The notes beneath the pieces were generated by a model, which was given only the letters and a program-made list of their open reading frames with translations, made no database searches and was not told the DNA's origin. DNA of 35,854 nucleotides from Anaerolineaceae bacterium (GTDB lineage: Bacteria; Chloroflexota; Anaerolineae; Anaerolineales; Anaerolineaceae), in contig PABH01000058.1 of NCBI GenBank assembly GCA_002702705.1, forward strand, positions 1-35,854, read 5' to 3'. Within the stretch, counting starts at the first letter, position 1. The number at the start of each line of letters is the position of its first letter. A program made the position numbers and the translations under genes. Positions 1 through 1,292 of the stretch are shown here, piece by piece.

Positions 1-98
1 TTAACCAATTTTTGTTGTTCTGGTGGTAAACATCCACCCGACTATGACTGGTAAACATTACCCGACTATGGGTGGTAAAAATAACCAGGCTATTGACA
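1..98. mobile_element. Possible end of an IS21-like insertion sequence
   Basis: Read on the minus strand, the block opens with TGTCAATAGCC and then carries repeats built on TTTACCA followed by CATAGTCGGGT: two full copies of 24 and 25 bases and the start of a third. IS21-family elements have TG...CA termini and several tandem terminal repeats, so this looks like one such end with the transposase genes beyond the left edge. No istA/istB sequence is inside the window. The alternative is a short coding repeat (FTTHSRVM/FTSHSRVD) in the membrane protein. Confidence 0.4.
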
Positions 99-172
99 CA
101 AAACCCAATGATGATAAAAACAATCAACGCGAAGTTCATTAAAAGCAGATAGGTGGATTTTAATTTACTCAT
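1..172 (-). CDS. Start of a membrane protein gene, partial at the left edge
   Basis: An ATG at 172 overlaps the TGA stop of the prenyltransferase-like gene by one base (TGATG), so translation is probably coupled. The frame stays open for 57 codons to the window edge. Residues about 8-30 form one hydrophobic helix after a basic N-terminus (MSKLKST), as in a membrane sensor or transporter. Its place after a ComX-like and a ComQ-like gene makes a ComP-type histidine kinase an attractive guess, but no kinase sequence is visible. From about codon 25 the DNA turns into tandem repeats that look like the end of an insertion sequence (see 1-98), so the gene may be broken there. Function is not established. 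Confidence 0.4.
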   Translation of the reverse strand, partial: MSKLKSTYLLLMNFALIVFIIIGFCVNSLVIFTTHSRVMFTSHSRVDVYHQNNKNWL

Positions 173-1086
173 CAAAACAGATCCAGTCTTCTTGTTAATG
201 TGAGAAGTCCTGTTTCCGATAAGGCTAAGGACAGCAAAGCCTGACGTGCTAAAATTTTATGCTTTTCTATAGATAATCCTAAATAAATTAGTGCTCCATT
301 TTCGATCAATAGATCACGTATATCTTTTCTGTACGCTTCTCGTTTTTTTTGTTGAGATAAAAAGAATAATAATTGTTTCTTTTTTAGTTCAGGAAGAATA
401 TCTTTTGCATACAGAATTGAAATATGATGGTTCCCCCACAGTGTTAGATCGGATTGAAAATCCTTAATATCATTGGCAATTTGTACCAATAACCCCAAAT
501 GAAAACCATATTCAGCCGTTTTTTTAGCGATCACTTCATTATCATTAGTGCAAATCACGCCAATATATGCGCCACAAGCAAAAAATAAGCCAGATTTTTT
601 GCCATATATATCCCAGCCATCTTCAAGAGAATAAACATCTTGGGTTAAATCCTGGTGCTGCGCTGCACACATGGAAAGTACCGTTTGATTGATATTTTGC
701 CTGATCCGTTGGGCAGACTGTAATTTTATTCCCTCATTCTCAAGGGAATTTAAAATTGTTTGCGCTAAAAAAATTAAAACGGTTGTTAGATTCGTGATAC
801 AGCCATCGTCTATTCGCAATGGAAGATTTTTGGTTTCTTTGTCCTCAATTTTATTAAGAAGATAAAGTGCAGTATACAAAAGTGCCCAAGCACTTGTAAC
901 TGGTGTAGGTAAAAATGATTCCCCATTAATGACATGGTTACACAAAGAAGGCAAGATTAAAAGGCTGTCTTCCTCAACTTTTGAATCCGGTAAAAGGTCT
1001 TGCAGCATGGCAACAAGAAACGAAAAGAGATTTGGATCAATACTTTCATTTTGAATAATATCCAAAATGAATTGAAGCATATTCAT
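172..1086 (-). CDS. ComQ-like polyprenyl synthetase-fold protein (candidate peptide prenyltransferase)
   Basis: This is an isoprenoid-synthase-fold protein of about 304 residues. The second metal-binding motif is clear near residue 204 (QIANDIKDF), preceded by the family's K-S-G-FFACGA segment. The first aspartate-rich motif, normally DDxxD, is weak here (NKIEDKE), as expected of a divergent enzyme rather than a housekeeping farnesyl or geranyl synthase. ComQ enzymes in Bacillus prenylate the tryptophan of the ComX pheromone. Here the gene starts two bases after a small ORF with a tryptophan near its C-terminus, so the same chemistry is inferred. I chose the ATG at 1086; a TTG six codons upstream would overlap the peptide gene. 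No good ribosome site precedes it, which suits translational coupling. A degenerate housekeeping polyprenyl synthase is the alternative. Confidence 0.7.
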   Translation of the reverse strand: MNMLQFILDIIQNESIDPNLFSFLVAMLQDLLPDSKVEEDSLLILPSLCNHVINGESFLPTPVTSAWALLYTALYLLNKIEDKETKNLPLRIDDGCITNLTTVLIFLAQTILNSLENEGIKLQSAQRIRQNINQTVLSMCAAQHQDLTQDVYSLEDGWDIYGKKSGLFFACGAYIGVICTNDNEVIAKKTAEYGFHLGLLVQIANDIKDFQSDLTLWGNHHISILYAKDILPELKKKQLLFFLSQQKKREAYRKDIRDLLIENGALIYLGLSIEKHKILARQALLSLALSETGLLTLTRRLDLF

Positions 1087-1088
1087 AG

Positions 1089-1292
1089 TTAAGGTGTGAA
1101 CCAATTGATACCCAATGAGTCCAATTCTGTATTAAATAGTAATTTTGAATTCTTAAAAAATTCTTCAAGAATAATTTGATCATGAGGAGAGAGATCGAGG
1201 TTAAGAGCAGGGTGATCAAACTCCTCTTTCACATTGTTAATTATGTTTTTGTCGGCAGCTAAAAAATATGCGATTGCGGAAAGTGATTCCAT
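1089..1292 (-). CDS. ComX-like peptide precursor (candidate prenylated signalling peptide)
   Basis: This 67-residue protein has no signal peptide. It has an amphipathic leader-like N-terminal part (AIAYFLAADKNIINNVKEEF) and a short tail ending GINWFTP. The layout (YFL motif, basic helix, leucine-rich middle, tryptophan four residues from the end) resembles Bacillus ComX precursors. The middle LDLSPHDQIILEEFF also recalls NHLP-type RiPP leaders. The ATG has a strong Shine-Dalgarno GGAGGG six bases upstream. The next gene encodes a ComQ-like protein, which would attach a prenyl group to Trp64. The order is peptide then enzyme, the reverse of the Bacillus comQX order. Family assignment is by eye, so the peptide could also be an unmodified small protein. 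Confidence 0.6.
   Translation of the reverse strand: MESLSAIAYFLAADKNIINNVKEEFDHPALNLDLSPHDQIILEEFFKNSKLLFNTELDSLGINWFTP

Follow-up and report, generated by a model that had tools for sequence, protein, structure and literature searches.

A probable ComQXPA-type prenyl-tryptophan signalling operon, interrupted in its kinase gene, in a bacterium of the Chloroflexota

Described systems and the locus in outline

The ComQXPA system of Bacillus and its relatives (ComQ, IPR033965; ComX, PF05952) is made up of four linked parts, in the order Q-X-P-A. Reportedly, a census of 2014 saw it in no phylum outside the Firmicutes. The tryptophan that ComQ accepts lies second to fourth from the C-terminus of the precursor, or internally in natto; the enzyme has, and needs, an asparagine at the first position of its pseudo-SARM, and an alanine mutant of the first aspartate of its FARM abolishes signalling (PMC5331326). 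Bacillus ComP has been modelled with an extracellular PDZ domain between TM1 and TM2 (PMC9620489).

Among described precursor types, PalX of Paenibacillus comes nearest. PalP-PalX-PalQ of Paenibacillus alvei (PMC10853753) shares with the loci treated here an NHLP-type precursor with a C-terminal tryptophan, a tryptophan prenyltransferase of isoprenoid-synthase fold and a neighbouring histidine kinase. PalQ is described there in a RiPP cluster, with the kinase adjacent to PalX (section 2.1). In contrast to the loci treated here, PalQ requires tryptophan as the last residue, and the portion of that account drawn on here names no regulator; the comparison with PalQ is one of descriptions and not of sequences. 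Ord1, which farnesylates free tryptophan (PDB 9v4g-9v4j), shares the fold and is among the best Foldseek matches of the enzyme analysed below, but its acceptor is a small molecule (PMC13290415). Among the matches listed in a literature search whose coverage excluded preprints and most subscription journals, there was no ComQXPA and no tryptophan-prenylated peptide from the Chloroflexota.

The window (the whole stretch of DNA that was analysed, 35,854 nucleotides) is the entire contig PABH01000058.1, here C60, of an Anaerolineaceae bacterium (assembly GCA_002702705.1). Genes X and Q lie at its left end on the minus strand. We read them, with a probability of about 0.75, as the first half of a prenyl-tryptophan signalling operon of ComQXPA type in the order X-Q-P-A, with NHLP-like precursors in its relatives. 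Like ComQXPA, the operon type has four parts: a short precursor (X) with a tryptophan near its C-terminus; an enzyme (Q) of isoprenoid-synthase fold that lacks IPP motifs and is related to ComQ by profile; a kinase (P) whose membrane sensor is homologous to that of ComP, with a PDZ domain in many members and with HisKA_3 and HATPase_c; and a regulator (A) with Response_reg and GerE, as in ComA. Unlike ComQXPA, X precedes Q, or A lies 5' of X in many relatives; the Chloroflexota precursors fall outside PF05952 and some are multi-core; and the hosts belong to another phylum. The locus is not a ComQXPA in the strict sense: PF05952 and gene order speak against it and, in the window copy, so does the first FARM aspartate.

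The operon in the window and its interrupted kinase gene

Positions 1 to 98, no strand assigned: terminal repeats of an IS21-type element (the element continues past the end of the contig).
Positions 99 to 172, minus strand: P, start of a ComP-like sensor kinase, with its initial codons and first hydrophobic helix (interrupted at 98/99).
Positions 172 to 1086, minus strand: Q, candidate ComQ-like tryptophan prenyltransferase (from the ORF, a family match and a fold prediction).
Positions 1089 to 1292, minus strand: X, precursor peptide of 67 aa (codons 1092-1292, stop 1089-1091; from the ORF reading).
Contig C7 of the same genome, L152 5088-8078: rest of P and regulator A (from a kinase search and domain matches).

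The original prediction of a 67-residue ORF ending in GINWFTP, two bases before a gene of isoprenoid-synthase fold, was confirmed by the ORFs, by PF00348 and by the predicted fold. The tryptophan of X is at -4, and a Shine-Dalgarno-like GGAGGG precedes its ATG. The Q frame is open from a TTG at 1104, with the ATG at 1086, two bases from the stop of X, as the likely start; the stop of Q shares one base, at 172, with the ATG of P. The frames of X and Q are intact and tightly coupled. On the plus strand, divergently oriented, lie a DsbA-like thioredoxin protein (1463-2185) and a Cys-rich ORF of 113 aa (2270-2611), for which a family search gave no match. A small helix-turn-helix-like protein is conserved 5' of X in three relatives (L036 5837-6217; L037 5609-5974, in reverse complement; L040 5771-6109); unlike them, the window has no such protein in view upstream of X.

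Searched with a relative's kinase, the source genome gives its best match at one end of contig C7. Repeats similar in style to those of the window stand there ahead of a kinase frame and a response regulator; the other end of an IS21-type element also lies there, beside the rest of P. A genome search placed the window 1-98 repeat also at the extreme ends of contigs C46 and C4 and on C43, less than 700 bases from the contig end, with weaker matches on C55 and C71. On C43 an ORF for IstB (IS21; PF01695, 7.5e-62) adjoins a copy of the repeat with 91% identity. The C60 and C7 flanks have a 4-bp duplication in common (4 is the only length from 2 to 8 that matches), and the kinase frame runs unbroken across the reconstructed empty site. 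Because the duplication is shared and the frame is continuous, the order of the window operon appears to have been X-Q-P-A, with an IS21-type element now inserted in P; no contig bridges C60 and C7, whose adjacency is deduced from these two features. Since P is interrupted, the window copy probably cannot sense. Beyond P and A on C7 there is also a 174-aa ORF on the opposite strand with a hydrophobic start (L152 4394-4918).

The same genome carries a second X-Q-P-A row, with all four frames open, on contig C69 (L005 381-4360; X 57, Q 319, P 726 and A 213 aa). Its X ends in LPLKEWI, with the tryptophan at -2; that position and the -4 of the window both lie inside the range that ComQ accepts. 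There is no gap between the first two hydrophobic segments of its P that could take a PDZ domain. Given the different X tail of this operon and a kinase that leaves no space for a PDZ domain, two signals may be in use in one genome.

Relatives and their distribution

Window Q gave matches, mostly weak, in 54 of 101 genomes searched, and the 20 best places outside its own genome were taken into a locus set. A seven-row Q model matched in 42 of 396 genomes of the class at E<=1e-30, the source genome included. From the 52 places outside the window that this search gave, 40 were taken, L053 was already in the set, and the remaining 11, all low-scoring, were left out; three of the 40 (L127, L129 and L136) have an IPP motif and were counted as canonical. 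Named matches (11 loci) included Longilinea arvoryzae KOME-1, a cultured member of the family of the source genome, and MAGs labelled Anaerolinea, Levilinea and Thermoflexales; L060, L062 and L063 were added from these. The final set of 65 loci comprises 59 without an IPP motif (Q loci, the near-copies L062 and L063 being counted separately) and 6 with one (canonical). It rests on 67 Q-model rows, less two secondary rows in L133 and L134.

Among seven genomes of the same genus, six were without a match and one had a weak match (3.2e-4). Outside the class, 400 genomes of the phylum yielded 6 matches at E<=1e-35, of which the source genome itself accounts for one. L163, L164 and L166 combine a tryptophan-tailed small ORF, Q and a kinase (the matches at L163 and L164 contain stop codons within the aligned stretch); L165 has only the tryptophan-tailed ORF, and L167 neither that ORF nor a kinase. 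One genome (G121) holds five Q copies (L097, L100, L116, L123 and L124), which suggests an expansion of signals or products. Farther afield, plasmid pFDU301A of Priestia megaterium carries a Q-like gene that has NDFQD but lacks IPP motifs (L151 5974-6981), unannotated there, which the Chloroflexota Q model matches at 3.2e-33.

The enzyme

Window Q matches polyprenyl_synt PF00348 (1.4e-8) and is predicted to have an all-alpha isoprenoid-synthase fold (pLDDT 90); prenyl diphosphate synthases and the prenyltransferase Ord1 are its structure matches in the PDB. Canonical synthases bind IPP through GKxxR and through an RRG that follows the FARM. In a first set, grouped by neighbouring genes, these two motifs were absent from 19/19 Q and present in 3/3 canonical proteins. 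In the full set both are absent from 59/59 Q and from 2/2 ComQ, the first of these counts being partly true by definition, because the 59/6 split was made with these motifs (at L038 an RRG occurs only within the untrimmed upstream extension). Among the canonical rows, 7/8 have GKxxR and 6/8 have RRG. A Q model built from Chloroflexota only matched two annotated ComQ at 1.7e-28 and 1.3e-31 (E-values for 1000 sequences). Judged by its sequence, Q is homologous to ComQ and devoid of IPP motifs. In the tree the 8 canonical rows group together (100/97), and window Q, on a long branch, groups with Longilinea and four others (100/91); the branching point of ComQ is left unsettled by the tree.

The reading of Q as an ordinary prenyl diphosphate synthase, with the small ORF beside it incidental, can appeal to the PF00348 match, to the retention of both Asp-rich motifs in most family members and to the lead of diphosphate synthases among sequence and fold matches. 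Nevertheless, we consider it highly improbable: Q has no IPP motifs, it is linked to a tryptophan-tailed ORF and a kinase, and two synthases that do carry IPP motifs are encoded elsewhere in the source genome.

An NDIKD and a degenerate first aspartate motif had been noticed at the outset, and both stand: the second motif reads QIANDIKD, and the FARM is NKIED, with asparagine in place of the first aspartate. The first FARM aspartate is present in 57/59 Q (the exceptions being the window and L133) and the fifth in 59/59. By keeping the fifth and not the first, the window FARM departs from the DDxxD of ComQ, which has both. The first position of the pseudo-SARM is Asn in 5/59, Ser in 1/59 and, unlike in ComQ, Asp in 53/59; the NDIKD of the window (Asn, then Asp) is of the ComQ kind, which has Asn or Gly first and Asp second. 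The glutamine that precedes the SARM, suggested as the residue that holds the indole NH (PMC13290415; PMC10853753), is found in 58/59 Q and is non-discriminating, because 8/8 canonical rows keep it too.

These motifs bear on whether the window copy is a decaying remnant, its enzyme weak or dead and its receptor broken, of a family that works elsewhere, which would be compatible with the ComQXPA reading. The asparagine in the FARM, the long branch and the interruption of P by an IS21-type element with its 4-bp duplication all point that way. Set against them are the intact, tightly coupled frames of X and Q and an asparagine at pseudo-SARM position 1 as in active ComQ; the insertion, moreover, may be recent or present in part of the population only. 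We give decay a chance that falls only a little short of even.

Precursor peptides

Precursors were picked by an automatic rule, as ORFs of 40-160 aa that end near the start of Q and have a tryptophan within the last 20 residues. Such an ORF is found at 51/59 Q loci, compared with 85/297 other genes in the same loci (Fisher p 7e-17) and 3/6 canonical synthases; a tryptophan within the last 5 residues is found at 33/59, 34/297 and 2/6, respectively. These counts contain wrong picks at L038, L104, L106, L115 and L131 (at L104 and L106 multi-core precursors lie further upstream), and the 8/59 Q loci without a tryptophan-tailed ORF under the rule include L112, where a leader-like start and a Trp tail lie in two different frames, and L128, where a multi-core ORF overlaps Q. 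The position of the tryptophan varies across the Chloroflexota loci, between the last residue and about -20.

A leave-one-out model trained on residues 1-48 finds an X-like ORF at 32/59 Q loci (E<=0.01) and at 0/6 canonical loci; 31 of the 32 finds carry a tryptophan in the last 20 residues, the training leaders having been taken from peptides selected for a Trp tail. When L063 was tested, the training set included its near-copy L062. The find at L047 is a second leader-like peptide, a 72-aa ORF that ends 468 nt 5' of Q and has its tryptophan at -9. Conservation of the tail among orthologues was what the original prediction had chosen to be judged by, and the tail is conserved on both counts (51/59 and 31/32). 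In the 34-row alignment of X the invariant tryptophan column is partly the product of selection, because the rows were chosen from 52 peptides.

The window's own X is missed by the leave-one-out leader model. Against a model of 14 relatives, 1 of 2000 full shuffles and 1 of 2000 leader-only shuffles score as high as it does; against a model of its five nearest relatives the numbers are 2 and 6 of 2000. In sequence, window X thus weakly resembles the precursors of its Chloroflexota relatives, and this much stands of the ComX-like N-terminal pattern that had been seen in it. The likeness to ComX itself does not stand, since searches of Pfam and NCBIfam put window X in no RiPP or ComX family. Among its relatives 2/34 X match PF05952 at E<=0.5 (best 0.058), and a profile comparison of X with three ComX places them in the same register without significance (P 0.018, probability 2.5%). 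A scan of 396 genomes with PF05952 gave 0 matches, a figure that is not usable as absence because the control was also silent in 14 genomes, B. subtilis among them. A ComX match was also sought in phages and none was found.

Many of the relatives' precursors resemble the NHLP/Os1348-type leaders instead: 23/34 have a match to NCBIfam NF038399 (Os1348 family, NHLP clan) at E<=0.1 (best 3.8e-12), and 14/34 match Pfam PF14407 at E<=0.5, the two matches viewed in full being below the curated cut-off. These matches are the relatives' only; window X has none in NCBIfam. At L041 there are two near-identical X genes, and at five loci the precursor is multi-core:

L104 7849-8184: three GPWGWQF units after a leader.
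L105 1520-1894: four GPWGWQF units after a leader.
L106 1890-2339: five GPWDWQF units after a leader.
L108 5624-6193: about twelve GPFPGWQG units of 39 bp around a run of N.
L128 2029-2316: three GPQEAWAVSP units after a leader.

To our knowledge, no multi-core precursor of a prenylated signal is known in bacteria.

Receptor kinase and regulator

A kinase lies within 400 nt of Q at 44/59 Q loci, downstream in 40 and divergently upstream in 4, and at 0/6 canonical loci. A sensor model adds kinases at L050, L116 and L123, which brings the loci with an adjacent kinase to 47/59; at L044 a kinase stands at 473 nt, and several Q loci without a kinase are situated at contig ends. Among 46 P proteins, 44 have HATPase_c, 33 HisKA_3 and 18 PDZ_2 (E<=0.001). 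Both of the A proteins that were examined, one of them L152 5091-5717, consist of Response_reg and GerE.

Whole-genome searches with ComP were tried as a test for the receptor. In the source genome they gave 20 matches, all through the catalytic domain, with the C7 part of P fifth and the C69 P not among them; in the Longilinea genome P came first of 13, through the catalytic domain as well. As only the catalytic domain was being matched, this test was replaced by the sensor model. Built from ten Chloroflexota sensors, it matches Anoxybacillus ComP over residues 16-378 at 1.5e-16 (0/200 shuffles), and among 597 targets its only matches besides labelled P proteins are L050, L116 and L123. The hydrophobic segments of Longilinea P and Anoxybacillus ComP nearly coincide. 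The Longilinea sensor is predicted to have TM1, a beta-rich domain and then further TM helices, an arrangement like that modelled for Bacillus ComP (PMC9620489); its PDB matches include the PDZ domains of DegS, DegP and MucP, weakly (best 0.038), with a GPCR on top (0.023) and nothing at <=0.001. The P of the window is split, with its first hydrophobic segment on C60 and nine more, together with HisKA_3 and HATPase_c, on C7. Joined across the deduced C60-C7 adjacency, these make up the ten TMs, HisKA_3 and HATPase_c of a ComP, with a loop of PDZ size that has no match to a PDZ domain in Pfam.

The original prediction, of a prenylated-tryptophan pheromone or RiPP in a Chloroflexota-like organism, is thus supported as far as sequences go by the conserved tryptophan tail and by the lineage, which fits. 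The kinase and the regulator, which were absent from it, favour signalling, because they are linked to X-Q. X and Q might instead make a tryptophan-prenylated RiPP whose main role is not signalling (it could be antimicrobial, surface-active or of the envelope), with P and A regulating its production or sensing its effects. Many of the relatives' X do resemble NHLP-clan RiPP precursors, multi-core precursors suit bulk production, and the characterised relative PalQ is described in a RiPP cluster (PMC10853753, section 2.1). Yet a kinase with a ComP-homologous sensor stands beside Q at 47/59 loci, and we regard a product of this kind as unlikely.

Proposed mechanism and meaning

On the ComQXPA-type reading, X would be a ribosomal precursor composed of a leader and a tryptophan-bearing C-terminus. 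Q, which is related to prenyl diphosphate synthases, would bind an allylic diphosphate through its FARM and attach the prenyl chain to the C-terminal tryptophan of X; peptidases would cut the modified X and a short lipopeptide would be released. This lipopeptide would be recognised by P through its membrane sensor, which in many members includes an extracellular PDZ domain, and P would phosphorylate the LuxR-type regulator A. The sequences support the linkage of the genes, the conservation of the tryptophan, the lack of IPP motifs, the homology of Q to ComQ and that of the P sensor to ComP, and the domains of A; from these we infer prenylation, secretion, signalling and target genes. The asparagine in the window FARM, the interruption of the window P and the C69 kinase without room for a PDZ domain are points against the ComQXPA reading.

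More speculatively, the Chloroflexota may have a phylum-wide prenyl-tryptophan language spoken on NHLP-leader precursors, some of which encode the signal 3 to about 12 times over; Bacillus ComQXPA would then be a trimmed branch of this older system of precursor, Q and kinase, its leader eroded into ComX. This is offered tentatively, with the odds somewhat against it.

The finding suggests that the ComX chemical language of Bacillus is also in use in a quite different phylum. If that is true, the Chloroflexota gain a signalling language that can be tested, with Longilinea arvoryzae KOME-1 as a cultured host. It would also provide many candidate peptide prenyltransferases paired with their substrates, and a way to trace where ComX came from.
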